64,000 nucleotides of DNA from Anaeropeptidivorans aminofermentans. GTDB taxonomy: Bacteria; Bacillota; Clostridia; Lachnospirales; UBA5962. The number at the start of each line of letters is the position of its first letter. Position 1 is the first letter of the stretch. This document shows, piece after piece, positions 12,023 through 35,475 of the stretch. Under the pieces are notes generated by a model. It made no database searches. It saw only the letters and a list, made by a program, of their open reading frames with translations, and was not told the origin of the DNA. The DNA is taken from positions 62,001-126,000 of the forward strand of contig NZ_OW711693.1 of NCBI RefSeq assembly GCF_940670685.1, given 5' to 3'. Position numbers and translations under genes: made by a program.

Positions 12023-12163
12023 TATAGTAAATTTATCATGAAGAAGTAGCAAAAGCCTATTCCCTTAAGGCTCAAAAACACGGATTTCCTTCGGAAACGG
12101 TACATTTTTGAGCCTTCGTGAATATACGGCTTTGCTACTGTTTAATTTTAAATTTACTGTATA
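12023..12163 (+). repeat. Family B MITE-like repeat, copy B1
   Basis: A full-length copy of about 141 bp with inverted ends TATAGTAAATTT and AAATTTACTGTATA. The core contains GAAGTAGCAAAAGCCTATTC, ACACGGATTTCCTTCGGAAA and GAATATACGGCTTTGCTAC. Near-identical copies occur at 50411-50547 (B2) and 55723-55861 (B3). The whole unit can fold back on itself. Confidence 0.85.
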
Positions 12164-17951: not shown

Positions 17952-18035
17952 AATGCATCTATTTTGACCGAATGACACAAAAAAGACATAGCTTTGCGCC
18001 AAGGAGATGGCATGTCTTTTTTCGCTAAAATATGG
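17952..18035 (+). terminator. Family F hairpin, copy F1
   Basis: AAAAGACAT (17981-17989) pairs with ATGTCTTTT (18012-18020) and is followed by TTCG. GCATCTATTTTGACCGAATG lies just upstream and is nearly repeated upstream of F3 at 34511. It ends the CPBP gene. Related hairpins occur at the insertion point of the mobile element (F2), at 34511-34600 (F3) and at 35405-35475 (F4). Confidence 0.75.
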
Positions 18036-18126: not shown

Positions 18127-18600
18127 ATGGATATAAAGCAGGCAGCAGATACGGATTTAGCAATTGTTGTAAACATAACACATGAAACAATAAAAGGAAT
18201 TTATCCCCGTTATTACCCGAAAGGGGCAGTTGATTTTTTCCTTGCGCACCATAGTGCAGAGAATATCAAATGTGATATTCTCTTAGGCAATATTTTTCTC
18301 CTTACAGTGGACGGAGCACCGGTGGGGACAGTCACAATAAAAAATAATGAGATTTGCCGCTTGTTTGTACTGCCTGAGCAGCAAGGAAAGGGATATGGGA
18401 AGGCATTGCTGGAGTATTCAGAAAAAGAAATTTCCCAAATATCCACGAGAATCTGTTTAGACGCTTCTCTGCCTGCGAAAAAGATTTACTTGCGGTATGG
18501 CTATCGGGAGATAGAATCCCATGCTATCCTAACAGAAAACGGTGACTATTTGTGCTATGACGTGATGGAAAAAGCAATGGATTTCACAGGCGGAAAATAA
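18127..18600 (+). CDS. GNAT-family N-acetyltransferase
   Basis: A 157-residue single-domain acetyltransferase. The acetyl-CoA-binding loop is RLFVLPEQQGKGYGKALLEY (about residues 79-98, Q/RxxGxG/A). ASLPAKKIYLRYGYREIESH is the conserved C-terminal segment. The N-terminus IKQAADTDLAIVVNITHETI is typical of family members that act on small amines or peptides. Start ATG 18127 follows GAAGGTG. It is a single accessory gene between family F hairpins; the downstream one (F2) has been split by the mobile element. Substrate unknown. Confidence 0.88.
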   Translation: MDIKQAADTDLAIVVNITHETIKGIYPRYYPKGAVDFFLAHHSAENIKCDILLGNIFLLTVDGAPVGTVTIKNNEICRLFVLPEQQGKGYGKALLEYSEKEISQISTRICLDASLPAKKIYLRYGYREIESHAILTENGDYLCYDVMEKAMDFTGGK

Positions 18601-18678
18601 ACGATATGGGGACAATTCTAACTTAATGCCGAAAAACTCTTTTCAATATTATTCCAAAAGACATAGCTTTCCGCCAAG

Positions 18679-18702
18679 TCCACCGTATGATAGGGACAAT
18701 TT
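18679..18702 (+). repeat. Left terminal inverted repeat of the element
   Basis: CCACCGTATGATAGGGACA followed by ATTT. It matches the reverse complement of 32881-32903. Probable recombinase attachment arm (attL side). Confidence 0.8.
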
Positions 18703-18724
18703 AGGAAACGCAAGCTGAATACGG

Positions 18725-18772
18725 AAAAGCGAGGGTGGGAACCGATTCATATCGATTCCCATCCTCGCTTTA
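18725..18772 (+). terminator. Hairpin H1 at the left edge of the small-gene cassette
   Basis: AGCGAGGGTGGGAA pairs with TTCCCATCCTCGCT around CCGATTCATATCGA. A closely similar hairpin at 20041-20086 closes the same three-gene group. It probably blocks transcription across the element boundary. Confidence 0.7.
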
Positions 18773-18902
18773 TGCAGAATCCATCAGGCAGACAGGTATA
18801 AGAAGCATCGCCGTGCTAAAAACATTCCTGAATTCATGAAACTTCTAATAGCTTTCAGCGGGCTCTTGTGGTATCCTGTGTCACTGATAGGAGGTGACCA
18901 AG

Positions 18903-19226
18903 ATGCAAAACCCATTGGACGAGCTGTACGACCGGTACAATCGTTTTGTCCCTGACGCAGAGATTCAGAAGAAAATTGAAGCATGCCACCAGCAGCTCAT
19001 CCGCAGTTTGGAAAAGCCGGAACGCAAGCTGATCCTGCAAATCATTGACGGCAAAGATATGATTTCAGGGTTCTATGCTAAAGAAAGCTTTGCCTGTGGC
19101 TTCTGGCTGGCATGGAGACTGCTCTCACAGCTTCATCATTACCAAAGCGACCGTCCGCCTGAGGAATTCCTCAAGGAGAACGGTCGTTTTATTATGCGGG
19201 AGGGAGATGCGGCAGATGAAGCGTAG
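18903..19226 (+). CDS. DUF6809-like small protein of a mobile element
   Basis: A 107-residue acidic helical protein: LDELYDRYNRFVPDAEIQKK, then RKLILQIIDGKDMI and ESFACGFWLAWRLLSQL. The layout (N-terminal L-EEL-Y, central charged helices, ESFxxGFxL near the end) matches a small family (DUF6809 in my recollection) common in Clostridia integrative elements. Function unknown. ATG 18903 follows a perfect AGGAGGTG; the in-frame GTG at 18894 overlaps that site, so I reject it. The following gene starts before this stop codon (overlap of 11 bp), indicating coupling. A decayed relative lies at 60252-60506 in this window. Confidence 0.7.
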   Translation: MQNPLDELYDRYNRFVPDAEIQKKIEACHQQLIRSLEKPERKLILQIIDGKDMISGFYAKESFACGFWLAWRLLSQLHHYQSDRPPEEFLKENGRFIMREGDAADEA

Positions 19227-19743
19227 AACAAGAATCGCAATTGGTGCGGCAGGGATGGCGACGGTTTTTCTTCTGCTGGGTACTGTTCCGCCGCGCCTGC
19301 CAGAGGAAACCCCCGCTGCTCCCCACATTCGCCCTGCGTGCGATTTAACACAAGAGATCAGGGAAATACCCCTGCCCGAGCCGCAAATCGACTGTGTGGC
19401 GGATTTACCCGCAATCGTTGGGGATATATCCAGCGTATCTGATGCAGGTGCCGGTGCTCCATGTGCCCAAGGCGTACCGAAACCCAAACCCAAATTCGCC
19501 GAGGACACAGCAGCCCCCCAAGCGGTAAATCCAACTGCCCCGGCACGGCAGAAACCACAGCCAAAGGAGTCCGCACCTGCCCCCAAAGAGGCCTCTCCTC
19601 AAATGGGAGATACCCGCACGGTAGATGGAAAAAAGCAGGTATACTTCCTTGGCTTCGGATGGATAGACGATAACGGCGGTGGCGGGGAGGGCACTATCGT
19701 GGATGGAGACGGCGACATAAACAAGATGGTGGGCGATATGTAA
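19216..19743 (+). CDS. Secreted or membrane-anchored Pro-rich small protein (DUF6550-like)
   Basis: A 175-residue protein. An N-terminal hydrophobic helix RIAIGAAGMATVFLLLGTVP follows MKRRTR and acts as a signal or anchor. A Pro/Ala-rich extracellular linker follows (KPQPKESAPAPKEASPQ). The C-terminus has a compact conserved-looking end YFLGFGWIDDNGGGGEGT. This architecture resembles a DUF6550-type protein of integrative elements, an assignment made from memory. I chose ATG 19216, with GGGAGGGAG 10 bases upstream; frames starting earlier lie inside the previous gene. It is coupled to the DUF6809-like gene and followed after 15 bp by another small gene. Role unknown. Confidence 0.65.
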   Translation: MKRRTRIAIGAAGMATVFLLLGTVPPRLPEETPAAPHIRPACDLTQEIREIPLPEPQIDCVADLPAIVGDISSVSDAGAGAPCAQGVPKPKPKFAEDTAAPQAVNPTAPARQKPQPKESAPAPKEASPQMGDTRTVDGKKQVYFLGFGWIDDNGGGGEGTIVDGDGDINKMVGDM

Positions 19744-19758
19744 TCGAAAGGACTGAAT

Positions 19759-20022
19759 ATGCCAATGGATGAACTTTTATTACCGGAAAACCGGCTGAGT
19801 CCCAGCGAAGCAGACGATCAGCCGATGAATAAAGACTACCTGGAAACAGACCTTCCAGCCAGCATTCAGAAGGCGATTGCCGAATTGCTTCAGGGAGAGA
19901 AAGAACAGGTGCTTCATTTGGACTGCCTCAGTGATGAGTTGTACGGAGCAATTAACGCAAACCTTTGGGGTGGCTGCATCACCGAGGAACAGGCGGATTA
20001 TCTGCGGAATAAATATTTGTAA
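19759..20022 (+). CDS. Small conserved-looking protein of mobile elements
   Basis: An 87-residue acidic protein. The C-terminal half LHLDCLSDELYGAINANLWG and CITEEQADYLRNKYL looks conserved: helical, ending in a YLRxKYL motif that I associate with short proteins near Clostridia integrases. No catalytic or DNA-binding motif is obvious. ATG 19759 follows AAAGGA. It is third in the three-gene cassette closed by hairpin H2. Function unknown. Confidence 0.6.
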   Translation: MPMDELLLPENRLSPSEADDQPMNKDYLETDLPASIQKAIAELLQGEKEQVLHLDCLSDELYGAINANLWGGCITEEQADYLRNKYL

Positions 20023-20040
20023 AGAAAGCCCAACACAGAA

Positions 20041-20086
20041 AAAGCAAGGGTGGAAGCCGAATCATACCGGCCTCCACCCTTGCCCT
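20041..20086. terminator. Hairpin H2 between convergent genes
   Basis: AGCAAGGGTGGAAGCCG pairs with CGGCCTCCACCCTTGC. It separates the plus-strand cassette from the minus-strand giant gene and probably terminates both. It is similar in sequence to H1 (18725-18772). Confidence 0.75.
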
Positions 20087-20102
20087 ATCTACTTGGGTTT
20101 AA

Positions 20103-23100
20103 TTACTTTGTCTTTCTCACGCCGTTTTTGTCTACCTCATATCCGTCTACCTTGGTGTTCTTGGCAAGGGAACCGTCGGCGTTGCAGTAATACCACTTGC
20201 CGTCAATCTCCAACCACTTGCCGGACACCATGACGCCGTCCTTGGTAAAGTAGTAGCGTTTGTCGCTGATGTCCAGCCAGTCCACGGCAACCTTGTTGCC
20301 AGTGTAATACCGCCAGTTGCCGCCGTCCTTCACCCAGCCGGTTTTGAGAGTCCCATCGGTATTGAAGAAATACTTCACGCCGTCGATGGTCTGTGTGCCG
20401 GTGAGGGCTTTGCCGTCCTTGTAGTACAGATACTGTCCGGCATCGTTAAGCGCCCATCCCTGTGCCGTATCCGGGTCAATGGTCAGCTTGATGTAGCGGT
20501 GGAGCATGGCGCTGACCTCCGCGCGGGTGGCATTGGACTTTGGATTAAACCTGTTATTCGTTTCGCCCATCATAATGCCTGCCTGCTGCATGGCAGTAAC
20601 CGCCGCCTTATAGATGCTGCCGATGCTGGAAGCATCCGCATAGGTCACAGCTTCACGGGTCACAGGCAGCTTGTAGCCGGTGGCTTTTGCGTAGTTTGCG
20701 AAGATGACCGCAACTTCTTCACGGGTAATTGCCCGGTCGGGTGCAAACTGCTGATTGCCGATACCCTGCACAATGCCTTTCTTGTATGCCCACTCGATGT
20801 AGGGGCGGAAGGTGCTGCCCGCTTTCACATCGGTAAAGCTATTGGTGGTGTATGCTTTCACATCTACGCCTGTCAATCTGCCGAGGGCCGTTACCAGCAT
20901 TTCCCTTGTCATGGCAGTATCAGGTGCAAAGGTAGTTTTGGATGTGCCGGAAAGAAGTCCCCTGCCGACCACATAGTCGATGCTTTCCTTGCCCCAATGG
21001 GTGGAAATGTCGGTAAACTTGGCGCTTGGAGCTTCGTACCCTACGCCGTACACCGAGAAATGGTTAGTGCCCAGCAGGAGGCTTCTACTGTTTGGATCAT
21101 AGGCCGAACCGGGGATTCGGGTGGCATTTCCCGCCCCGTCCACATAGACGCCGAACAGATAGCCCACGGCCTCATTTTTGCCCGGTGTGTAGGGGATGGA
21201 CAGGGTTGCCTTGCCGCTTCCAAGACTGGAAATATTCTGTGTTTTTCCGTGTTTGTCTGTATAGCTGATTGTGATGCTATAGACTGGACGGTTGCCCAAA
21301 AGCGCTTTTGCTGCCTTTGAAAGCCCAGTGACTGGAGTGAAGCTGATGCTGATATCCCCGCTACTCTGTTTCTGGATTTCCTTTAGTGCGTTCAGATCAA
21401 GACTGAGGGATACCGGTGCGCCACTGATTTCAAGTTCAGTTACCCCAGCACTTACAAGACTGTTCAGGGAATTTCGGGTCAAGGTTGCCGCAAGAGAAGT
21501 CGTGCCCTTTGGCATTGTAACATTCAGTGCCACCGATATGCCGTTTGCGGTTTTTCCCTGCGCCTTTGCATCAGCCTGTGCCTTAGCAATGGCGTCGGTC
21601 ACTGTCTTGTCGGGGATTGATGCGCTGGCCGCACCGTTTTGTCCCGCCGCCGTGATGGGAGCCGTTGCCGTCACTGGCTGATCCGGCTTCTTTTCAGGTG
21701 TAGTGATTGTGGGCGTGCCCGGCGTATAGGAATCACCACCACCAGAGCCGCCGCTACCGTTATAGCTCCAGCTTGCCGTAACCGTCAGATCAGCGGTCAC
21801 GTTATCAAAGGCTTTATCCCACCCGGTGAAGGTATAGCCGCTTCGGGTAGCGGTGGGAGCCGTTGCCGCTCCGCCCTCCGCAATGGTCTGTGACAGCTCG
21901 CCCCCTCCTGTGCGGCTGCCACCGTTCAAGTTAAAGGTGACAGTATAGGTCTGCTCTGCAACGGTAAGGGTACCGTTCGTGCGAGTTGTAATGGTGTAAT
22001 TATCCGTTGCCGTGCCGCCTGTGAGTGTAATGGGATAGCTGCCCACCGTATTGCCGTCAAAGGTCGGGCAAGCCAGGACAGGTTGGGTGCTTAAAGCATC
22101 CGCCTTGGTTTCCCCGGGAGCCAGATTGCCTACAGTATAGGTAAGCTCCGGCAGGCTGCCGCCCTTAGTGACCGTCTTATTATCGGTAACAAGGGTGATT
22201 TCCCGTTTTGCGATGGTAAAGTTGAATATCTCGCTGCCTGCATAATCGGGGTTACTCTCCGGCACAGAAATGGTCAACTTATATGCGCCTGCGTTTGTGG
22301 GCGCGGTGCTGTTTCTGTAGCCTGCGCTATCCGTGGATTCATACAGCCATTCCAGTTGATTCACCGGAACAGAGCCGCCTGTAACGGTCGCTGTGCCACT
22401 GGGCGCATAGGATGCGCCGTCATAGGCCTTATTGGCGGTCGTGATGCCGCCAATGATAACGGCTTGTTTTGCCGTAACAGATACCTTGCGGCTGACGGTG
22501 GAGCTGTCCGGCAGGGTCAGCCAAGCAGGTGGCGTTATGTAGCTGATGGTGCCTGTAAAGGTCTGCTCGGTGCCTACAGCCGTTCTATCCAGCGCTTCGC
22601 CGCCGTTCCAATCGACAGTATAGGCAACGCTTTGGCCTTCTACCATGATGGAACCGCTTGCAGGCAGGATGGCGCTTCCTAATTCAGCGGCTGTAGCGGA
22701 GCTGTCGCTGCTTATGACCACCAACGTGTCGCTGAAGGTGGGGGGCACTGCCGTGACCGGCGTAACGGTAACGGTTAGACTCGCAGTCACGCCGTTGGGC
22801 TCAATATTGCTGTTGCCTGTGAGCGTACCGACCACCACATATATAGCAGTCTTGGCATTGTAGGCAGAGACAGTCGACCATGTAATTGGCAGCACTGCCG
22901 TACCGCCATCGGTGCTGACGTTCACACTTGAAGGCAGACCTGCCGCATCCACAACAGCCTGTGCAGTTGTGGCGGTGCGCATTTCATAGGCGGTTTTGTT
23001 TGCGTTGTCCACAGTCGTGGTGATCTCTGACACCTTGGCCTGCTCAATGGTGAAATTGACCGTGACCGGAGCAAGGGAAATCTCGTAGTTTCCACCCGCA

Positions 23101-26100
23101 CTTAAATTGCCGAGGGAAATGGCATAGGTCCCCACGTTTTCCCCTGCTGCACGACTAAGCTTGCCGGTGAAAGCCCCCGGAGCCAAGCCAGCGCCATTTG
23201 CAAAGGTCAATATTGGATCAATCTCGCCATATTTTTTGCTCTGACCGGGGTGGGGCATGATGGTGATTGGCTTTTTCCCTATGGTGTAGGTTATGTTTAT
23301 GGTACCGTAAAAGCTGCCGATGCCGGTGATGGTGAGTGTCACCGTTCCGGCGTTTGTGCCATCGCTTGCGCTCTCGTCTGCTACCGCAACAGTATAATCG
23401 GTGTCCTTAACCAGTGTTTCGCCGTCAAAGATCAAGGCTGGGATTTGCTCACTGCCGTTGTAAGTGAGGCCGTCTGTTGCTCCCACCGTGGCATACTGGA
23501 TATCCCGCGCTGTCAGATACAGCCCGCCATCGCCGCTTTGTCCCGCAAGACCTGTGAGCGTGGGCAGCTTGCCGTCGGCAAATGTCCAAACGCCGCTGTC
23601 CCAAGCAGCAGTATCCCAATTACCTGCTGTCGTCCAGAATCTGCCGCCAAACAAGGTCTGTGAGGTCACATCCGCGCCGTCCTTTGCACTTAGACCCTTA
23701 TTTGCCCATGTGCCAGGAATACGGCTGAACGCATAGTTGTTCAAGAGAGAGCCGGAGGTGTTTCTGCCCACCACGCGCCCGAAATCGGATGCGCTTGCGT
23801 TGTTGATGGAAGGGTTCAATGCCGCACAATTTTGCACGCTGCCACTGGTAACGCTTCCCGCAACGCCGCCGACATAGCGAACGCCTTTGATATTGCCGGT
23901 GCTGTAGCAATTTTGCACACTGCTGCTGCTAACGTCCCCCGCAACGCCGCCAACATAGCGTACTCCGGAAACACTGCTGTCACTGTAGCATCGTTGCACC
24001 GTAGTGGCTGCGTATTCAAGATACCCTATTATGCCGCCAACATAGTCTTTGCCAGTCACACTACCGGTACTGTAGCAGTTTTGTACTGTGCCGCTTGAAG
24101 CACGGCCCACCGTTCCGCCGACATTCTCATCACCGGATACGTTGCCAATAACGGCGCAGTTTCCTACTGCCGCATCCCAAGCAAATCCGGCTATGCCGCC
24201 GACACTGTTTTGTCCGTTGACGCTTGCGTCGATGATTCTGATATTCTGCACCTTGCTACCGATGTAGAGATAGCCGAATAAACCGATGTAATCAGCCGTC
24301 GACCGGGTGATAGTCAGCCCGGTAATGGTTTTGTTGTTGCCATTAAAGTTTCCCTTGAATTGTTTTGCAGAGGTGCCAATGGGCATCCAGCCCTCCCCAC
24401 TTGCATAGCTGGAAAGGTCAAGGTCCTTTTCCAGCCTGTAATACCTTCCTGGATCCGCATAAGGTGAGGTTCCCGCATTCACCAGTTCGGCCAGTTTGGC
24501 AAGGTCTGCGGCGGTTTTGATGAGATAGGGGCTGGCGCTTGTGCCCGCACCCTCAAAGACGCTCGCGCCCACCGGAAGCAAGTGCTCCGGCATGTAAGCA
24601 TGCTGTCCGCCCATATTTTTAAGAAGCGGCAGTTTTCCGGATTCAATATGCCAAATATCGGTATCCCAGTCTGCCGTAAAGCCCGCAGCTTGCGTCCAGA
24701 AGTCCGCTGTGTAGATTTGGGCGGCGGTTTTGGATAACCCGTCTACGCCATTTGCATTGCTGGTAATGGATTGCGGGGCAGTATTTTTTAAAACTTCCAC
24801 ACCATCAAAAGCCAAATTGCCACTTAGAATCCCTTGCTCCTCATATAGTGTTAACACACGCTCGACATAGCCTCGGCCACTGACTGAGGGGTTAAGTGCA
24901 GCACAATTTTCTACCGTGGCACCACCTTTGACTTGACCCGCTACACCGCCGGCTTTGTAGCTGTCAGAGACGCTGCCGGTGCCGTAGCAGTTTCGTAATA
25001 ATGCTGAATCGCCATCCATGCTACCCACCACGCCGCCGGTTATTTCAGCCCCGGAAACATTGCCAGTGCTGTAGCAGTTTTCTACGATGGCTCCGGCTAC
25101 TTCGCCCACCACCCCACCGGCAGAACCGCTGTGATATCCTGTACTGCCCGTTCGCATAACATTGCCGGTGCTGTAGCAGTTTTGCAGCATGCTGCCTCTG
25201 CAAAGCAAACCCACCACACCGCCTCGATCTTGACTCAGACTCTCTCCTGTGCTGTTGACATCGCAGGTGCTATAGCAGTATTTCACCATGTTGTTATCGC
25301 ACGCAGCACCGACTATACCACCGACAGAGCCATTGGCTGTGCTATTGATATTACCCGTGCTGTAGCAGTTTTCCAATGTGGCAGATTCGATAGCGCCTGC
25401 CACGCCGCCGACATAGCGTCTACCATTGATGCTGACGCCTGCAACGCCGAGGTCTTTTACCACTCCACCTACAATTTTACCGAATAGTCCTTGATAATCG
25501 CCGCCGACAGCGTTGATGGTTAAGTTGGCGATCGTATTCCCATTACCGTCAAATGTGCCATTAAATGACCTGCTGTATGCGTTGCCAATGGGCATCCAGC
25601 CCTCCCCGCTTACATAGCCGGAAAGGTCGAGATCGTTCATCAGTCTGTAGTGTGCGGCATTATAGCTCGCGTTCCCCTCGTTTACCAGCTCCGCCAGCTT
25701 GGCAAGCTGGGCGGGAGTGGTAATCTGATAAGGCGTTTCGCTGGTGCCTTCTCCAAAGAAATTCGGGTCGCTGCCGTCCACGATATACTCCGGCATATCA
25801 ATCGCCGTGCCGAAGCCGGGCAGCTTACCCTCCGACAGCGTCCATATCGAGGAATCCCAATCACTCAGTGCGCCGGTCGTCCACAAGGTTTGAATGGCTG
25901 ATGCGTCCACGTTCATGCCGTTTATGCTGTCCGTGTCGGTACTACTTACCATGACTCCATTGACTGTCATGCCGCTATAGGCCATATTGCCCGAGAGGCG
26001 GTTGCGGGTGTCGATGCCCGCCGCGCGCCCCACGCCCACATTGTAGCCCACTGCGCTGATCGAAGAATTCAGAGCGGCACAGCTTTTCACTGTGCCGGAA

Positions 26101-27836
26101 ACAGTGCCCGCCACGCCGCCCACATAAGCGCTTGTGCCGGTGCCGGTAATGCTGCCGGTACTGTAGCAATTTTGCACTGTGCCGTAAACCCATCCTGCTA
26201 CGCCGCCGGCACAAATTTTATTACCTGTATCTGTGCCGGATGCAGTAATGCTGCCCGTGTTGAAGCAGTTTTGTATTATGCCGGTATTAGTGACCCATCC
26301 CGCTACGCCGCCTGTAGATATGCCGACACCTGTACCCGTGACGTTGCCGGTGCTGTAGCAGTTTTGCACCGTGCCGGAAACCCATCCCGCCACACCACCT
26401 ACAGAGCCGCTTGTACCGGAGCCCGTGCCGGTGACGCTGCCGGTATTATAGCAGTTTTCCAACGTGCCTCCGTCAACCTCTCCCGCCGCACCGCCAACAT
26501 AACTGCTGCCGGTAACGTTGCCGGTGCTGTAGCAATCTTGCACTGTTCCGCGAACCCATCCTGCCACGCTGCCGACATTAATTCGGCCGGTGATATTTAC
26601 ATTTATCACGCCCAGGCTTTTCACTGCTCCCTCGTTTCCAACATAGCCGAACAAGCCCTGATAATCAACGTTTCGGTTAATGTACAAGCCAAGGATGCTT
26701 TTATCGTTACCGTCAAAGCTACCGGTAAAAGGAAATTCGCTTGTGCCAATGGGCATCCAGCCCTCTCCGCTAGAGTATGCCGAAAGGTTGAGGTCGTTCA
26801 TCAGTTTAAGGCTGACCTTTGCTCCCGCATCGTTGAATAAAAACAACTCCAGTCCGTTTTCCCGCGCATTCACCAGCGTGGCAATCTCGGCAAGCTGTGC
26901 CGCCGTAGTGATTTCCAGCGGGCTGTCTGTTGTGCCGCCGCCCGTCATGCGCAGCATTCGGCCGGCTGATTGCGGGATGTAGACCGTTATGCGGGGAAGC
27001 TCTACGCCATCCGCAAGGGCATATCCCTCACCCAAAACAACGGTGAACACATAGAGTCCCCGCTGAGGATATTCCGCATCATAATCATGGTCGGCCTCCC
27101 AAGTCACCGGGATTTGAGCCGCTTCGCTACCAACCGTACCGCTTACGGTTTCCGGGAATGTCGGTGCGATGGTGTTCTGCCAGCGAATATCGTCGGGCAG
27201 TTCGTCAAAGGCCGTCACCATGCCGCCGGTGATAACCGCTGCGCCTACCGTTACAGTAATTTGGGGCTCTTTTGCGCCAGCCGCAAGAGTGAAACCCTCC
27301 GGCAGCTCAGGCGTGAAGTGATATGTACCCGCTACTTCACCGTCGTATTCCGGCGATGAAGTCCATGTGACAGGCAGGGGGACGCTAATTTCATCTATGC
27401 TGTCCACAGTTTTCTCTACAGGCTCGGCCTTGGTATCGCTCTTTGTTTCTTGTGCATCGGAGGGAGAGGCGATTTCGGCCTCTGCTCCAGCTTCGGTATC
27501 AACCTTTTCATCCATGCCAATCGCTGATCCGCTTACCGTATCAGCGCTGTCCAGCTTGGCATCAGTTTCTCCGGAGTCCAACACCGGTTCTTCGTCTAAA
27601 ACTGCAAGCCGGATAGTCGCCGTTAGGGTATCCGGCAGCTCCAAATCCGCTTTGGATGTGCCGAGCGGCACGCTCCGCACCGTAATGTCCGACCCCAGCG
27701 CCTCAAAGGCGGTGATCTCACCGCTTGCGCCAATGGGCATGCCTGCTGCCGCCGCTGAAACAGGCATCATGCCCACAACCATGATGACGGACAACGCCAC
27801 AGCTGTGAGCCTTTGAATTGGTTTCCTTTTACTCAT
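20103..27836 (-). CDS. Giant cell-surface protein with GLUG modules, Ig/MBG-like domains, SLH and choline-binding-type repeats
   Basis: A 2577-residue secreted protein. ATG 27836 is used because GGAGGA precedes it; a longer frame has no ribosome site. A signal peptide (LTAVALSVIMVVGMMPVSAA) is followed by Ig-like domains to about 285. Three tandem modules follow to about 1490, each opening with a PYQITTPAQLAKLAELVN-type segment, carrying five or six GLUG-like repeats (GTVQNCYSTGNVTG pattern; 17 in total) and closing with a W/DW/GKLP motif. Next come YDG/MBG-like domains (about 1500-1960), a Listeria-Bacteroides repeat (NLNGGS...GYTFTGWDKAF), a Ser/Thr-rich segment, three SLH domains (about 2270-2450, encoded near 20478-21020) and WYYCNADGSLAKN-type cell-wall repeats to the end. 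SLH domains bind pyruvylated wall polymers. It is probably an adhesin under control of the divergent TetR. Confidence 0.88.
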   Translation of the reverse strand: MSKRKPIQRLTAVALSVIMVVGMMPVSAAAAGMPIGASGEITAFEALGSDITVRSVPLGTSKADLELPDTLTATIRLAVLDEEPVLDSGETDAKLDSADTVSGSAIGMDEKVDTEAGAEAEIASPSDAQETKSDTKAEPVEKTVDSIDEISVPLPVTWTSSPEYDGEVAGTYHFTPELPEGFTLAAGAKEPQITVTVGAAVITGGMVTAFDELPDDIRWQNTIAPTFPETVSGTVGSEAAQIPVTWEADHDYDAEYPQRGLYVFTVVLGEGYALADGVELPRITVYIPQSAGRMLRMTGGGTTDSPLEITTAAQLAEIATLVNARENGLELFLFNDAGAKVSLKLMNDLNLSAYSSGEGWMPIGTSEFPFTGSFDGNDKSILGLYINRNVDYQGLFGYVGNEGAVKSLGVINVNITGRINVGSVAGWVRGTVQDCYSTGNVTGSSYVGGAAGEVDGGTLENCYNTGSVTGTGSGTSGSVGGVAGWVSGTVQNCYSTGNVTGTGVGISTGGVAGWVTNTGIIQNCFNTGSITASGTDTGNKICAGGVAGWVYGTVQNCYSTGSITGTGTSAYVGGVAGTVSGTVKSCAALNSSISAVGYNVGVGRAAGIDTRNRLSGNMAYSGMTVNGVMVSSTDTDSINGMNVDASAIQTLWTTGALSDWDSSIWTLSEGKLPGFGTAIDMPEYIVDGSDPNFFGEGTSETPYQITTPAQLAKLAELVNEGNASYNAAHYRLMNDLDLSGYVSGEGWMPIGNAYSRSFNGTFDGNGNTIANLTINAVGGDYQGLFGKIVGGVVKDLGVAGVSINGRRYVGGVAGAIESATLENCYSTGNINSTANGSVGGIVGAACDNNMVKYCYSTCDVNSTGESLSQDRGGVVGLLCRGSMLQNCYSTGNVMRTGSTGYHSGSAGGVVGEVAGAIVENCYSTGNVSGAEITGGVVGSMDGDSALLRNCYGTGSVSDSYKAGGVAGQVKGGATVENCAALNPSVSGRGYVERVLTLYEEQGILSGNLAFDGVEVLKNTAPQSITSNANGVDGLSKTAAQIYTADFWTQAAGFTADWDTDIWHIESGKLPLLKNMGGQHAYMPEHLLPVGASVFEGAGTSASPYLIKTAADLAKLAELVNAGTSPYADPGRYYRLEKDLDLSSYASGEGWMPIGTSAKQFKGNFNGNNKTITGLTITRSTADYIGLFGYLYIGSKVQNIRIIDASVNGQNSVGGIAGFAWDAAVGNCAVIGNVSGDENVGGTVGRASSGTVQNCYSTGSVTGKDYVGGIIGYLEYAATTVQRCYSDSSVSGVRYVGGVAGDVSSSSVQNCYSTGNIKGVRYVGGVAGSVTSGSVQNCAALNPSINNASASDFGRVVGRNTSGSLLNNYAFSRIPGTWANKGLSAKDGADVTSQTLFGGRFWTTAGNWDTAAWDSGVWTFADGKLPTLTGLAGQSGDGGLYLTARDIQYATVGATDGLTYNGSEQIPALIFDGETLVKDTDYTVAVADESASDGTNAGTVTLTITGIGSFYGTINITYTIGKKPITIMPHPGQSKKYGEIDPILTFANGAGLAPGAFTGKLSRAAGENVGTYAISLGNLSAGGNYEISLAPVTVNFTIEQAKVSEITTTVDNANKTAYEMRTATTAQAVVDAAGLPSSVNVSTDGGTAVLPITWSTVSAYNAKTAIYVVVGTLTGNSNIEPNGVTASLTVTVTPVTAVPPTFSDTLVVISSDSSATAAELGSAILPASGSIMVEGQSVAYTVDWNGGEALDRTAVGTEQTFTGTISYITPPAWLTLPDSSTVSRKVSVTAKQAVIIGGITTANKAYDGASYAPSGTATVTGGSVPVNQLEWLYESTDSAGYRNSTAPTNAGAYKLTISVPESNPDYAGSEIFNFTIAKREITLVTDNKTVTKGGSLPELTYTVGNLAPGETKADALSTQPVLACPTFDGNTVGSYPITLTGGTATDNYTITTRTNGTLTVAEQTYTVTFNLNGGSRTGGGELSQTIAEGGAATAPTATRSGYTFTGWDKAFDNVTADLTVTASWSYNGSGGSGGGDSYTPGTPTITTPEKKPDQPVTATAPITAAGQNGAASASIPDKTVTDAIAKAQADAKAQGKTANGISVALNVTMPKGTTSLAATLTRNSLNSLVSAGVTELEISGAPVSLSLDLNALKEIQKQSSGDISISFTPVTGLSKAAKALLGNRPVYSITISYTDKHGKTQNISSLGSGKATLSIPYTPGKNEAVGYLFGVYVDGAGNATRIPGSAYDPNSRSLLLGTNHFSVYGVGYEAPSAKFTDISTHWGKESIDYVVGRGLLSGTSKTTFAPDTAMTREMLVTALGRLTGVDVKAYTTNSFTDVKAGSTFRPYIEWAYKKGIVQGIGNQQFAPDRAITREEVAVIFANYAKATGYKLPVTREAVTYADASSIGSIYKAAVTAMQQAGIMMGETNNRFNPKSNATRAEVSAMLHRYIKLTIDPDTAQGWALNDAGQYLYYKDGKALTGTQTIDGVKYFFNTDGTLKTGWVKDGGNWRYYTGNKVAVDWLDISDKRYYFTKDGVMVSGKWLEIDGKWYYCNADGSLAKNTKVDGYEVDKNGVRKTK

Positions 27837-27944
27837 ACCGTTTCCTCCACTTCGCATCCTAAAATTCCTATTGAATCTTCAAATGATCCCATACACTTTT
27901 GTCAGGCAAAATCCGAAAAATTGTGACCGTTTTAGATAGACCGC

Positions 27945-28049
27945 TTGAATTAAAGGCTGTCAGGTGCTATACTAAAATTGAAATGACCCAACTTAGTGAA
28001 CTAGGTTACTTACTTTGCTTATTATACTTTACTTTTTGAAAAAATTCAA
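27945..28049. promoter_or_regulatory. Overlapping divergent promoters with a central palindrome (TetR operator candidate)
   Basis: On the plus strand TTGAAT (27945-27950), 17 bp and TATACT (27968-27973) point to the TetR gene. On the minus strand TTGAAT (28049-28044), 17 bp and TATAAT (28026-28021) point to the giant surface protein gene. The predicted start sites, near 27980 and 28014, face each other. Between them lies the imperfect dyad ACTTAGTGAACTAGGT (27991-28006, 12 of 16 symmetric). A repressor bound here would block both promoters. Confidence 0.65.
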
Positions 28050-28064
28050 TAGAGGAGCGGCAAC

Positions 28065-28688
28065 ATGAGAGAGAAAAAGCCAGATAAACGAAAGGTGCAG
28101 GGAGCGGAAACCAAAAAGAAGCTGTATGAGATTGCCGAAAGGTTATTTACAGAACGCAATTTCTCCGATGTGAACGTAGAGGACATCACCGATGAAGCGG
28201 GTATCACCAAGGGCGCCTTTTATGTACACTTCGAGTCCAAGGATGCGTTGATCGCCATTTTGATTGCAGACCATGCCGCGAAGGCTGATGCGGATTACAA
28301 AACCTTTGTGGAAGCACTGCCCAATGATATGCCCGCCTCAGAGGTACTCCTTGCACTGACCCAAAAGATAGCCGATGAGCTTATGGATACCATCGGCTGC
28401 GAAAATATGAAAAAGATCTATCAGATGCTGCTGGCCGGAACCGTGGATACCGAAGCGGTGAAAGGTTACAGCCGAGAGCTTTATACGCTGTTTCATGGCG
28501 TATTAGAAAAGGGCATCCGGCGCGGGGAGCTTACATCTTCATTGCCGTTGGAGGAGCTTTCTCGACATTTTGTAATGGCAATCCGTGGCGTCAGCTATGA
28601 ATGGTGTGTCCGCTATCCCGACTTTGATTTGAAAGAACAAGCGATAGAGCATATCCGGCTGCTGATAGAGGGAATTCAGATCAAATAA
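28065..28688 (+). CDS. TetR/AcrR-family transcriptional regulator
   Basis: A 207-residue protein. The N-terminal helix-turn-helix occupies about residues 18-62: KLYEIAERLFTERNFSDVNV, DITDEAGITKGAFYVHFESK. The rest is the all-helical ligand-binding and dimerisation domain (LHVFHGVLEKG-like segment LFHGVLEKGIRRGEL). ATG 28065 follows GAGGAG. It is divergent from the giant surface protein gene, with a palindrome between their promoters. It is therefore most simply the local repressor of the surface protein and of itself. The inducer is unknown. A terminator follows at 28815-28862. Confidence 0.9.
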   Translation: MREKKPDKRKVQGAETKKKLYEIAERLFTERNFSDVNVEDITDEAGITKGAFYVHFESKDALIAILIADHAAKADADYKTFVEALPNDMPASEVLLALTQKIADELMDTIGCENMKKIYQMLLAGTVDTEAVKGYSRELYTLFHGVLEKGIRRGELTSSLPLEELSRHFVMAIRGVSYEWCVRYPDFDLKEQAIEHIRLLIEGIQIK

Positions 28689-28814
28689 GCGTGGTCTGTA
28701 TACCGACCAGCGCCTTGTTATCCTTGTGGTACTTAATCGGTCAGTGCCGTTCAGTGTCCAGTCTTGGCCTGTGGAGCGAAAAGCATCTAAATCCATTGAT
28801 ATTTTCCAAATCCA

Positions 28815-28862
28815 GCAAAGTGCCGTCCGCAAAAAAGCGGGCGGCACTTTGCATTTTGTTTT
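28815..28862 (+). terminator. Rho-independent terminator of the TetR gene
   Basis: GCAAAGTGCCGTCCGC (28815-28830) pairs with GCGGGCGGCACTTTGC (28837-28852) around AAAAAA. It is followed by ATTTTGTTTTTG. Confidence 0.85.
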
Positions 28863-28877
28863 TGTAGACCCCTTTAT

Positions 28878-29140
28878 GAAACCGGATTAGTAGTAAGGGG
28901 GGTATGGGTTTCAAAAATAATTCCGTCCAACCACCCTCCGGAGCGGGATAAATAGTAGAGGGTAAAATTTTTCCGCTCAGCTGCGTTGTGAAATCGGATT
29001 AGTAGTAAGGGAGTCTTATGAATTTTAAAAAAATAATTCCGTGCAGCAGCCCTTTTGAACGGGATAAATAGTAGAGGGATAAAAATATTTCAAGAATTAA
29101 TGGCTCACCCCCTCTCCTGAACCGGAAATATAGTAGAGGG
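28878..29140 (+). repeat. Five iteron-like direct repeats upstream of the RepA-like gene
   Basis: Five copies of a roughly 22-bp unit: GAAACCGGATTAGTAGTAAG (from 28878), GAGCGGGATAAATAGTAGAG (28941), GAAATCGGATTAGTAGTAAG (28990), GAACGGGATAAATAGTAGAG (29057) and GAACCGGAAATATAGTAGAG (29119). The spacing is 63, 49, 67 and 62 bp, so copies 1 and 3 and copies 2 and 4 form two alternating subtypes. The spacers also repeat (AAAATAATTCCGT at about 28913 and 29028). The last copy ends 34 bp before the RepA-like ATG. The arrangement resembles an iteron-type replication origin or autoregulatory site. Confidence 0.8.
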
Positions 29141-29174
29141 ACTTTTCAAAATCAAGACAAGGAGGAGGAACAAC

Positions 29175-30197
29175 ATGACGGAACGTTTTCACACTATCGA
29201 CGGAGAAATCCTGATGAACCAGCCGCTGTCACCCATCCGCTTTGTGGTGGAGGGACTGCTGTCCCACGGTCTGCATCTGCTTGCCGGTGCGCCGAAGTCC
29301 GGCAAGAGCTGGCTGGCGCTGTGGCTGTCGGTCACGGTTGCCAAGGGGGAGGAGGTCTGGGGCAATCGTGTACAGCAGGGAACGACGCTGTATCTCTGTT
29401 TTGAGGACAGCCGCCTGCGCATTCAAAACCGCCTCTTCGACATCACCGAGGACGCGCCGCCCAACGTACATTTCTGCGAGGAGAGCGTTCGACTGGGCGA
29501 GGGACTGGAGGAGCGCATCGGGCAGTTTATCCTTGAGCATCCCGACACGGTGCTCATCATCATCGATACCCTGCAGATGATCCGAAGGCCTGCTATGGAC
29601 AACTCCTACGCAAATGATTATGCAGACCTGACCGCCCTCAAAAGGCTGGCGGATCAAAACAGGATCGCGATTCTGCTGATCCACCATCTCAGAAAGCAAA
29701 AAGACGACGATCCCTTCAACCGCATCTCAGGAACCACAGGCCTATCGGGTGCGGTAGATACCAGCTTCACCCTGGTGGAGGAACGCCGGGGCAGCGGCCG
29801 GGCGACCCTGTCCTGCATCGGGCGTGATATTGAATACCGGGAGCTTGGGCTCCGCCGCAATGAAAGCAATGTCTGGGAGCTGGTTTCCGACAGCCGGGAG
29901 CATCCGGAGCTGCTTCTCCCGGACATCGTTTTTCTTGTTTCTGACTTTATGAAGGACAAGTCCGAATACCACGGAACGCCAGCCGAGCTCTCGGAGCTTA
30001 TCAGCAGAGAAGAAAACAGGATCAGTGACCGCATGGTTTCCCGGCTGCTCCTGCAGAACACGGAGGAGCTTGCCGGTCATGGCATCCGGGCTGTCACACG
30101 AAGGAGCAGCGGCAGGCGCATCATCGATCTGTATGCCGACAGCCGCAGTGACGATGGTGACGATAGTGCCGATAAAAATGACACCGCCCCGGTGTAG
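29175..30197 (+). CDS. RepA-like RecA-fold ATPase/helicase (AAA_25 type)
   Basis: A 340-residue protein. Walker A GAPKSGKSW (about residue 38), Walker B LIIIDTLQMI (about 128) and LLIHHLRKQ with SGTTGLSGAVDTSF further on are the RecA/DnaB-like core seen in plasmid RepA hexameric helicases. The C-terminal 90 residues look like a winged-helix (YHGTPAELSELISREENRIS...). Such proteins unwind plasmid origins. ATG 29175 follows AAGGAGGAGG. The five iterons directly upstream support a replication or maintenance role for the element. The stop codon lies inside the first copy of a 43-bp direct repeat (30187-30229). Confidence 0.8.
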   Translation: MTERFHTIDGEILMNQPLSPIRFVVEGLLSHGLHLLAGAPKSGKSWLALWLSVTVAKGEEVWGNRVQQGTTLYLCFEDSRLRIQNRLFDITEDAPPNVHFCEESVRLGEGLEERIGQFILEHPDTVLIIIDTLQMIRRPAMDNSYANDYADLTALKRLADQNRIAILLIHHLRKQKDDDPFNRISGTTGLSGAVDTSFTLVEERRGSGRATLSCIGRDIEYRELGLRRNESNVWELVSDSREHPELLLPDIVFLVSDFMKDKSEYHGTPAELSELISREENRISDRMVSRLLLQNTEELAGHGIRAVTRRSSGRRIIDLYADSRSDDGDDSADKNDTAPV

Positions 30198-30229
30198 AAA
30201 ATATCGACCCTGTTGACCCTATCGTCACT
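30187..30229 (+). repeat. Direct repeat R, copy 1 (overlaps the end of the RepA-like gene)
   Basis: The unit begins CCCCGGTGTAGAAA and ends CCCTATCGTCACT, including GACCCTGTTGACCCT. It recurs at 30446-30488 with one or two changes. An inverted AGTGACGAT lies just upstream at 30147-30155. Confidence 0.85.
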
Positions 30230-30445
30230 CAGAAGGGACGTGCGCCCCTGTTGCCGCCTGTACGCCCCTGTGTGCCGTTTTGTGGGGTGGGGGGCATCCA
30301 TACCCCATACCCGCCTGCAAAGAGCCGTGTCAAGGCTTTGTTGGGGAATGTGTGAAACGAGCCGGATGCGGTAAAGCGACAGGAAAACGCCCCGCCTGTT
30401 TGCCGGTTCTCACAGTAATGACAGTGACGTTCATGCAAGTGCCGA

Positions 30446-30488
30446 CCCCGGTGTAGAAATTATCGACCCTGTTGACCCTATCGTCACT
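30446..30488 (+). repeat. Direct repeat R, copy 2
   Basis: The same 43-bp unit as 30187-30229, spaced 259 bp. The interval and the following 320 bases (to 30813) hold no gene I can support. They are GC-rich, with small hairpins (for example CGCCCCTTCTCCGGCG at about 30747 and CCCTGCATTCGCAGGG at about 30772). The spacing and the position between repA-like and recombinase genes suggest a recognition site for an element protein. Confidence 0.85.
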
Positions 30489-30813
30489 TGGGCAGGGTTC
30501 CCGCCCCAAACCGAGCCGATTCCCACGGTCGAAAAGAGAGCAGGAGAAAGGAAGGTGGACGCAAGCGTCCTCCCTCCAGCCACAAACGCCCGCAGTGCGG
30601 GCGTTTTCAGGGCATCTCCGTAGGTGGCCGGTTTCACGGTTTGGCACGGTCAAGGTGGTCGCTTTCCCATGAAACCCGCATAAAATAAGGCTTTGTGACG
30701 TTCACCTTAGAGGTGGACGACCTCAAATAACAAAATTCCCCTTGCCGCCCCTTCTCCGGCGGCAGTACATACCCTGCATTCGCAGGGGAAAATTTCAAAA
30801 GGAGAAATGCAGT

Positions 30814-31059
30814 ATGAAAGAAACAACAAACTACGGCAGCTATGCCGCAAGCAATCCCCACATACTATCCCCCTTCGGCTATCCTGTTCTCACCTTCGAC
30901 GACACGCTGGCCGTTATCTCGGAGGAGGGATTCTTCCGGGAAAGAGAGATGATTCTGGAGGGAAAGCCCTTCAAAGTCCGTTCCTTTTTCCGGCCTGTTT
31001 CTTCTGAAACCGCCACTGATAAACTGCTCCGCCTCATCGATGCGGAGCAAACCCGGTAA
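30814..31059 (+). CDS. TnpW-like transposon-encoded small protein
   Basis: An 81-residue protein whose end VRSFFRPVSSETATDKLLRL followed by IDAEQ matches the C-terminal motif of TnpW-type proteins. These sit upstream of the large serine recombinase in Tn4451-like elements of Clostridia. Their molecular role is not established. ATG 30814 has AAAAGGAG 8 bases upstream; the longer frame from 30742 has no ribosome site. It is co-oriented with the recombinase gene, 83 bp apart. Confidence 0.75.
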   Translation: MKETTNYGSYAASNPHILSPFGYPVLTFDDTLAVISEEGFFREREMILEGKPFKVRSFFRPVSSETATDKLLRLIDAEQTR

Positions 31060-31142
31060 TCTTTTCTTTGGCATAGACTTGTGCGAACCGTTGCGGTATG
31101 ATGTGTAATACCGTATTCGGTTTGCCGGAAAGGAGCTTACAG

Positions 31143-32810
31143 ATGAAACAGGCAAACGAAAAATATACGATTTTATACGCAAGACTCAGTCAGGACGACG
31201 GCAGTCAGGGGGACTCCAACAGCATCCAGAACCAGCGAATGATGCTGGAGAAGTACGCAAAGGACAATGGGTTTGAGAATGTGAGGTTCCTGTACGACGA
31301 TGGTGCGACCGGCACGAATTTCAACCGGCCCGCTTTTCAAGAGGCACTGGAGCTCATCGAAAACGGCGAGGTTGCAACCTTTATCGTCAAGGATATGAGC
31401 CGGTTGGGTCGGGGGTATTTAGAGGTTGGTAGGCTGACAGAAATCGTGTTCCCAAGCTACGGCGTGCGGTTTATCGCCATGAATGACGGCGTGGACAGCC
31501 TCTACGGCGACAACGAATTCACCCCGTTCAAAAACATCATCAACGAATGGTATGCGAAAGACTGCAGCAAAAAGGGAAAAGCCGCCGCTAAAATCAAAGC
31601 GGAAAGCGGAGCGAGGGTTGGCTCAAGACCGCCCTTCGGGTATCAGAAAGACCCTGCCAATCCCAAGCGGAAAATCATCCCCGATGAGGAAACGGCACCC
31701 ATTGTCAAATACATTTTCGCTCTGTGCATGGGCGGCAAAGGCCCTACTCAGATTGCGGTGCAGCTTCGGGAGGAACAGATTCCCATCCCCGCCTATTACT
31801 ATCACAAGAAAAACGGAGTCAAGATTGTCGGCTTCGATCCTGTCCAACCGTACTACTGGTCATCCACAACCGTAGGAAAGATATTGGAGGATGAGGTTTA
31901 CCTCGGACACACCATCAACCTCAAGTACACCACACTGTCCTACAAAAACAAAAAGCGTATCAAGCGTCCCGAGTCGGAACGGGTAAGGCTTGAAAGCACT
32001 CATGAACCGCTGATAGACCAGACCACTTGGGATATTGTGCAGGACATCCGCAGGCACAAGCGCCGTCCAGCCAAGATGGCAGAACAGAATATGTTCTCCG
32101 GACTAATTTACTGCAAGGACTGCGGAAAGGCGATGGTGCTCAGCCGGGCGCATACCATGGACGCGGTCAAAAACAACTTCCAATGCGCTACCTACAGGAA
32201 AAGAGGCAAGGAAACCTGTTCCGGACATTACATCCGAGAATCCCAGCTCGCCGCCATCCTTCTGGACGATCTCCGCAGGGTGACCCACTTCGCAAGGCAG
32301 AACGAACTGCTCTTCGCCAAGCACATAACCCAAAAGAACGGCGCTGAAATCCGACGTGAGATTGCCCGTGTCGAGCGTGAACTGGAATCGCTCAAACGGA
32401 GGGACACGGAACTGAGCGCATTATTCAAAAGGCTGTATGAAGACAATGTTCTTGGCAAAATCCCGAATGAGGTATTCCGAAGGCTCAGTGACGACTACCT
32501 TGCCGAGCAAAAAGAAATCCAGACCGCCATCCCAAAAAGAGAGAGTGATCTGGAAAAGCTGAGGGAATTGGTGGCCAATGTCGGCGCCTTCATTGAAAAG
32601 GCAAGGAAATACACGGAGATCAATGAACTCACCGCGGAAATCCTGAACCTCTTTATTGAGCGGGTGGAGGTCGGGGAACGTGAGGAAAAATGGTCACACA
32701 CCGCCCCGCAGGAAATCAACATTTACTATCGGGACATCGGTTTGATGGACACTGTTACTGAAAAGTCCGAGGAGCTCGAAGCGCCGAGTGACCCGTCAGA
32801 AGTCGCATAA
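31143..32810 (+). CDS. Large serine recombinase (TnpX/TndX type)
   Basis: A 555-residue site-specific recombinase. The catalytic serine lies in YTILYARLSQDDGS near the N-terminus, with the resolvase-domain residues VKDMSRLGRGYLEVG. A recombinase domain covers about 170-280 (PPFGYQKDPANPKRKIIPDE). The zinc ribbon is SGLIYCKDCGKAMVLSRAH with CATYRKRGKETCSG. A coiled coil follows (REIARVERELESLKRRDTEL), then a DUF4368-like C-terminal region (TAEILNLFIERVEVGEREEK). These enzymes excise and integrate elements through a covalent 5'-phosphoserine link and a 2-base core, giving a circular intermediate. ATG 31143 follows AAAGGAG; the frame from 31098 is longer but lacks a site. The gene ends about 100 bp from the right end of the element, as in relatives. 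Confidence 0.93.
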   Translation: MKQANEKYTILYARLSQDDGSQGDSNSIQNQRMMLEKYAKDNGFENVRFLYDDGATGTNFNRPAFQEALELIENGEVATFIVKDMSRLGRGYLEVGRLTEIVFPSYGVRFIAMNDGVDSLYGDNEFTPFKNIINEWYAKDCSKKGKAAAKIKAESGARVGSRPPFGYQKDPANPKRKIIPDEETAPIVKYIFALCMGGKGPTQIAVQLREEQIPIPAYYYHKKNGVKIVGFDPVQPYYWSSTTVGKILEDEVYLGHTINLKYTTLSYKNKKRIKRPESERVRLESTHEPLIDQTTWDIVQDIRRHKRRPAKMAEQNMFSGLIYCKDCGKAMVLSRAHTMDAVKNNFQCATYRKRGKETCSGHYIRESQLAAILLDDLRRVTHFARQNELLFAKHITQKNGAEIRREIARVERELESLKRRDTELSALFKRLYEDNVLGKIPNEVFRRLSDDYLAEQKEIQTAIPKRESDLEKLRELVANVGAFIEKARKYTEINELTAEILNLFIERVEVGEREEKWSHTAPQEINIYYRDIGLMDTVTEKSEELEAPSDPSEVA

Positions 32811-32817
32811 CACGGTA

Positions 32818-32850
32818 GTCGGCAGGCAGCGAAATCTCACTGCCTGCCGA
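32818..32850 (+). terminator. Hairpin after the recombinase gene
   Basis: TCGGCAGGCAG pairs with CTGCCTGCCGA around a 10-base loop. No long T-run follows; it probably still terminates or insulates the right end. Confidence 0.6.
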
Positions 32851-32880
32851 TATATACCGCCCTACTTCACCACGGTTTAG

Positions 32881-32904
32881 AAAATGTCCCTATCATACCG
32901 TGGG
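32881..32904 (-). repeat. Right terminal inverted repeat of the element
   Basis: AAAATGTCCCTATCATACCG followed by TGG. It is the inverted match of 18680-18702. The half-hairpin GGGAAAGTTATGTCTTTTTT of the split chromosomal target begins at 32908. Confidence 0.8.
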
Positions 32905-33027
32905 GAAGGGAAAGTTATGTCTTTTTTATATTACAGATGTGATATAATCAATTTAACAGCCTTTGATAAGCAGTATGGCTAAGGTGCGAAGCGCCGCGAA
33001 TTTATATAAAATAAGGGAGGTGTTTTG

Positions 33028-34510: not shown

Positions 34511-34600
34511 ACTGCATCTATTTTATACGAATGACACCAAAAAGACATATTTTTCTGCCAGGAAAGTTATGTCTTTTTTTATTCAATAAAATATGCTACT
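34511..34600 (+). terminator. Family F hairpin, copy F3 (intact)
   Basis: AAAAAGACATATTTTTCTGC pairs with GGAAAGTTATGTCTTTTTTT. GCATCTATTTTATACGAATG upstream matches the flank of F1. It shows what the target of the mobile element looked like before insertion. Confidence 0.75.
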
Positions 34601-35404: not shown

Positions 35405-35475
35405 CCGAAAGACATAATTTTCACTAAGGGAAAGTTATGTCTTTCTTTATAGCTAAAGCATGTTACTATCGATTC
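35405..35475 (+). terminator. Family F hairpin, copy F4 (intact)
   Basis: AAAGACATAATTTTCACTAA pairs with GGGAAAGTTATGTCTTTCTT. It is followed by AGCTAAAGCATGTTACTATC, which resembles the sequence downstream of F3. It terminates the DUF523 gene and precedes the leader of the next gene. Confidence 0.75.

Follow-up and report, generated by a model that had tools for sequence, protein, structure and literature searches.

A large serine recombinase element inserted in a terminator-like hairpin loop, and relatives that split hairpins of unrelated sequence

We analyzed a 64,000-nt stretch of the genome of Anaeropeptidivorans aminofermentans (GCF_940670685.1, contig NZ_OW711693.1, positions 62,001–126,000; hereafter the window), which carries a TndX/TnpX-like integrative element whose large serine recombinase has a DUF4368 domain. 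The natural target of this element is very probably the loop of intrinsic transcription terminators. Comparison of sites shows that, as judged from their flanking sequences, members of its clade split hairpins whose sequences are unrelated, in most cases at an AA near the middle of the loop and typically next to a gene's 3′ end. A preliminary description of the window had proposed that the element targets the loop of one repeated terminator hairpin (family F). The loop as target is borne out by a sister element and by elements in other genera, which also split hairpins, while membership of family F proves irrelevant. The idea is thus supported in a wider form than stated: Since the stems differ between insertions, the target appears to be terminator-like hairpins as a class. 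Elements of this kind are known, but the target class seems to be new for them.

Counted with a single copy of the core, the element occupies positions 18678–32907 (14,230 bp) of the window; it is intact and of about 14.2 kb, as first described, with limits slightly different from the 18679–32908 then proposed. Its inverted ends (18680–18702 and 32881–32903) are 91% complementary over 23 nt, in agreement with the earlier figure of about 90%, and rank first among 36 inverted-repeat pairs between 18400 and 33200. The left end (18678–18702) and the right end (32881–32905) are better read as the two halves of a putative palindromic attachment site, attP, than as transposon terminal repeats. On either side stand the two halves of a family F hairpin, as previously noted, 94% complementary over 17 nt (18656–18672 and 32909–32925); with site reconstruction, the host halves extend over 18656–18675 on the left and, including the T-run, over 32908–32927 on the right. 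The trinucleotide AAG reported at the junctions is present at both (18676–18678 and 32906–32908). Only AA, however, is constant across relatives (19 of 20 left cores and 19 of 20 right cores), so that the shared core is best read as the 2-bp AA, with copies at 18676–18677 and 32906–32907, and the G as a chance match. When the flanks are joined at the core, they form a 17-pair stem with a 6-nt loop (−23.7 kcal/mol), followed by a T6 run like that of an intrinsic terminator, and the core lies 75 bp past the end of an open reading frame (ORF) for a GNAT acetyltransferase (18127–18600, Pfam match). All of these features are given on the plus strand. Insertion of the element into the loop of a terminator-like hairpin 3′ of the host GNAT gene is confirmed.

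The same genome contains a second element, whose recombinase is 93% identical to that of the window and whose ends are of the same kind; it lies directly after a tRNA-Leu gene and splits a hairpin similar to the window site. One scan of a species collection gave relatives at 34 loci. By strict thresholds, and with the query genomes included, relatives occur in four of 392 genomes of the order, seven of 391 of the class, and five of 250 in the family of genome G057. We rebuilt 20 target sites with differing flanks, 17 of them with both ends on one contig. Over these 17, the true pairs of flanking halves have a mean folding energy of −21.1 kcal/mol, compared with −8.6 kcal/mol (standard deviation 1.2) for re-paired halves, and none of 200,000 permutations was as low; at 12 of the 17 sites, the site's own right half is the best partner of all 17. 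Left ends had been located from the element sequence, from inverted repeats in the element's own ends (including G042 and G311, where a scan for such repeats matched the element's own end), or, at five sites (G664, G528a, G528b, G057b, and G940), by a scan for inverted repeats whose range included the flanks. Excluding these five leaves 12 sites with ends set by the sequence of the element, and the result is retained: −19.2 versus −9.2 kcal/mol, with 0 of 200,000 permutations as low (−18.7 versus −9.0 without the window site, n = 11, again 0 of 200,000). The three cross-contig pairs (G060C70/52, G060C34/66, and G061C16/28) were paired by eye on the basis of their hairpin halves, which is circular, and were left out of the permutations.

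We scored a site as a hairpin when the joined flanks had an energy of −12 kcal/mol or lower and at least 10 pairs around the core in a near-central position. This holds for 16 of the 20 sites (14 of 17 same-contig and two of three cross-contig sites; nine of the strict set of 12) but for only 4% of 1,500 random intergenic AA positions. A T-run of at least five follows 12 of the 20 paired sites and six of eight unpaired right ends, which were used for this count only (L043, L050, G712, G729, G552, G1004, G011, and G060 C30), compared with 12.3% of 6,866 AA positions in the window. Among relatives in the group with 79%–89% identity, the right flanks mostly show half a stem together with a T-run.

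The sites also lie close to gene ends. In 16 of the 18 sites considered, either an ORF of 100 codons or more ends no farther than 150 bp away on the proper side or a tRNA gene directly precedes the site, and at five of the 18 such ORF ends are found on both sides; this count uses mechanically called ORFs with no random control, and omits L046 and L047, which have short flanks. The site of G059 lies between two gene ends, and the two sites with no gene end nearby are G060C44 and G060C34/66. At the place in G057, another species, that matches the G940 insertion site (86% identity over query positions 285–593), the hairpin is uninterrupted, with synteny on one side only, the other side of the query lying ∼2 kb away on the opposite strand. 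At the tRNA-Gly site of G057a, the other three genomes of the genus have different terminators.

Several observations weigh against terminator loops as the target. Three of the 17 same-contig sites (G060C44, G059, and L046) and the cross-contig site of G061 fail the hairpin threshold; of these, G059 and L046 fold weakly or off-center, and G060C44 interrupts an open frame on both sides. The one exception to the AA core, G063, has GA and CG, and the core positions, which were aligned by hand, are ambiguous by 1–2 nt in a few members of the group with 51%–66% identity. Of the eight right-only flanks, two (G712 and G552) lack the continuing AA, and that of G552 is also without a T-run. We found no empty site of the window element: Its left flank occurs in one of 57 genomes, which is its own, the genus being represented by one genome only in this search.

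The best-placed alternative is that the recombinase reads only a loose linear motif (A-rich, AA, T-rich), the hairpin being incidental and insertions within genes having been lost to selection. This is a real possibility, if a doubtful one. Information in the aligned sites is concentrated in the AA core, in A around −12 to −20, and in T around +12 to +20, while the stem columns carry little; the same A-rich/AA/T-rich composition describes the target motif of the recombinase Cp36 in human DNA (PMC10083194). A matrix trained without the two sites of the window genome still ranks them third and sixth of 30,771 AA positions (centered hairpins make up 12% of its top 100). The L046 site, which lacks a centered hairpin, is a good match to the motif (22.6). 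Yet such a motif does not reliably pick out hairpins by itself. Across 448,607 bases, the matrix from all 20 sites finds centered hairpins in 50%, 30%, 25%, and 18% of its top 20, 50, 100, and 200 intergenic matches, and in 16% of the 100 best among all matches, as against 14 of the 17 real sites. Leave-one-out scores are moreover poor at some true sites, among them the hairpin sites G528a (−12.9) and G664 (−8.5) as well as G060C44 (−2.3), although a single matrix may be too crude to serve both subgroups. By these scans, the motif alone is probably insufficient to explain the sites. The scans also matched another repeated hairpin, CAAAAATGTACCGTTTCCGAAGGAAATCCGTGTTTTTG, whose loop contains AA, at window positions 12090 and 55790 and at L040:5318.

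It is unlikely, though conceivable, that the palindrome itself is mainly recognized, perhaps as an extruded cruciform or hairpin, with the A and T tracts a by-product of terminators. Complementarity is kept while the stem sequences differ wholly, hairpins are in excess over motif-matched intergenic positions, and two sites that score poorly for the motif are hairpins. Serine integrases, on the other hand, act on double-stranded sites, and the sites of G060C44, L046, and G059 lack a centered hairpin. Cp36, too, uses a linear motif in human DNA, with no mention of hairpins in the main text of its description (PMC10083194). Judging from the sites at hand, the enzyme may read the palindrome, the A/T tracts, or both, and survivorship is likewise inseparable from these here.

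That only the dispersed F hairpin family is targeted, as a repeat of this genome, and not terminators as a class, is highly improbable. The window site, the sister site, G057a, and one G060 site all read AAAGACATA..., and several intact F copies exist, but relatives down to 57%–80% identity split unrelated stems (L047, G664, G057b, G940, and G311), which contradicts the F repeat as sole target at the level of the clade. Within the window, half-site matches are over-represented (six at three or fewer mismatches, against 0.42 expected). The uninterrupted copies F3 (34540–34577) and F4 (35407–35445) reported earlier are real, and a further intact copy upstream of the element (17979–18022) is the top match of the motif scan; all three lie on the plus strand. 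The suggestion that such copies could serve as alternative sites fits 17979–18022 and F4, both of which have AA in the loop, whereas F3 is predicted to be a poor site because its loop has none. We can practically discount the idea that the hairpin halves are carried or made by the element and that no pre-existing terminator was hit, for which only the adjacency itself speaks: The flanking halves differ between close relatives with similar ends, and the uninterrupted hairpin at the matching place in G057 contradicts it.

If terminator loops are the target, integration might proceed as follows. Recombinase dimers would bind attP, with its two inverted halves around AA, and the target attachment site attB, consisting of an A-rich arm, stem, AA, stem, and T-rich arm; the bound sites would then meet, and the AA would be cut and the strands exchanged and joined, exit of the element being the reverse reaction. 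Landing at gene ends would spare coding sequence. A strong hairpin in the left end of the window element (18726–18771), recognized as an inverted-repeat pair and with a z score of −5.2 for a 120-nt stretch, may further act as a replacement terminator that restores termination for the gene in front of the element. In most elements, such a hairpin directly follows a left-end motif, with sequences that differ between elements, and the z score of the 120-nt stretch is below −2 in 17 of 20 (exceptions: G060C34, G060C48, and G821). We tentatively extend this picture, in a form that may well prove too broad, to a large DUF4368 branch of terminator-homing integrases, in which A-tract, stem, AA loop, and T-tract form one composite target to which the palindrome contributes, the element's own terminator heals the gene, and the Cp36 motif in human DNA is a footprint of this target.

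The recombinases TnpX and TndX target GA, whereas the core of the window element is AA. Insertion sequences such as IS110/IS621 and IS1397 target repetitive extragenic palindromic or other hairpins and so resemble the window element in entering repeated palindromes, but they use other enzyme families and particular repeats, whereas here the terminators are of unrelated sequence. Tn4451/Tn4453 (TnpX), Tn6104, and Tn5397 (TndX) share with the window element a large serine recombinase and a 2-bp core, the target of TnpX being 2 bp (PMC3158075), and the passages of that paper considered here describe no terminator targeting by Tn4451/Tn5397-type elements. The assignment of the window recombinase to this type in the preliminary description agrees with its domain set: The 555-aa protein (31143–32810, plus strand) has Resolvase, Recombinase, zinc ribbon, and DUF4368 matches, four Pfam families above their cut-offs. 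The window element may also have the TnpW-like ORF of Tn4451-type elements (30742–31059, plus strand, true start unsure): The candidate has a PF14202 match of 24.1 bits, just under the cut-off of 25. Group IIC introns likewise target the stem-loops of Rho-independent terminators (PMC7923331); these, however, insert after the stem-loop by an RNA-based route, whereas the DNA recombinase of the window element splits the loop.

A further close parallel is the multi-targeting clade of large serine recombinases, rich in DUF4368 (Cp36, Enc9, and Pc01), described by Durrant et al. (PMC10083194). Like the elements studied here, its members combine DUF4368 with many different target loci. In that report their target is described as a sequence motif, in contrast to the terminator-like hairpins found here, and we liken Cp36 to our elements by description only. 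The words "terminator," "hairpin," and "palindrom" do not occur in the main text of PMC10083194 (supplements being outside this count) or in that of PMC13137831. Among the literature matches listed, no title concerns terminator-targeting serine recombinases; an earlier notice is possible, subscription papers and supplements being mostly uncovered. Multi-targeting serine recombinases are genome-writing tools whose target, in the papers considered here, is described only as a loose motif. A terminator target, if true, would explain how they reach many loci while mostly sparing genes, would make bacterial landing places predictable, and would supply a testable site rule (stem, AA loop, and A/T arms). 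Insertion at the hairpin tip suggests that a widespread class of integration enzymes lands where it does little harm.

We placed 45 chosen loci and the window in a recombinase tree (L058, L066, L067, L071–L075, L107, L109, and L110 were left out), with site labels set by eye before the hairpin threshold was defined; L049 is labeled as hairpin, but its cross-contig site does not reach that threshold. All hairpin-sited members lie in one clade, separate from a clade that enters coding genes: A group of 26 (support 95/92) comprises 15 hairpin-labeled, eight half or weak, one coding, and two unlabeled rows. A second group of 17 (100/98) has nine coding and eight unlabeled rows. Placement of long rows is unsure, and the program flagged the join of L182 and L023 as unsure. 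The coding rows and the recombinases of about 41% identity (L051, L053–L056, L059–L061, L066, and L068) enter one conserved coding sequence, NTPxIIKYPFWQM, which is a different, site-specific target. The flanks of a Bacillus badius plasmid element of 44.8% identity join to a weaker hairpin (−10.4).

The viral_contigs set yielded no relatives (one stretch matched the pattern in the protein scan and was not confirmed, and the DNA pattern gave 0 matches). Among plasmids, blastn gave eight records with short, weak matches only, and tblastn at an E value of 1e-100 gave 10 plasmid and two phage records, all <60% identical. At L035 (G000:C1:1440155), we observed an isolated right end of this type of element, with no pattern-type left end or full-length close recombinase listed nearby; it is possibly an element remnant. 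In the same contig, L041 (G000:C1:1468731–1473593) has three consecutive serine recombinase genes, 31%–34% identical to the query. In the metagenome contigs L046 and L047, the left flank extends 129 bp past the element in both, as does the right flank of L047, which looks like a break in the assembly graph, as if filled and empty sites coexisted.

The remaining genes of the window element, called from ORFs and Pfam or domain scans, are three small ORFs (18894–20022, plus strand; DUF6809, DUF6550, and no family), a 2584-aa surface protein (20103–27857, minus strand), a TetR-family regulator (28065–28688, plus strand), and an AAA_25 ATPase (29175–30197, plus strand). The surface protein, which we take as cargo, has GLUG, MBG, S-layer homology, and choline-binding-type repeats; its counterpart in the sister element is 71% identical, and that of the ATPase 52% identical. 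No relaxase family is found among the matches of the eight ORFs scanned in the element, shorter ORFs having been left unscanned. An inverted repeat lies 3′ of the recombinase gene (32820–32849), and relatives have a similar stretch there.

The left-end motif GCAAGCTGAATACGGA (18710–18725, plus strand) is conserved in relatives, and a second, inverted copy stands directly before the recombinase gene (31110–31125, minus strand). Many members have a GCAAACTGAATACGGA-like motif within their left end and, again inverted, directly upstream of the recombinase gene. The form GCAARCTGAATACGG at 18710–18725 and, inverted, at 31110–31125 recurs likewise in several related elements; a regulator or directionality factor may bind there. 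Just upstream of the AAA ATPase gene, finally, are three direct repeats of about 35 nt, of the CGGGATAAATAGTAGAGGG type (28928–29140), which are perhaps iterons or operators.

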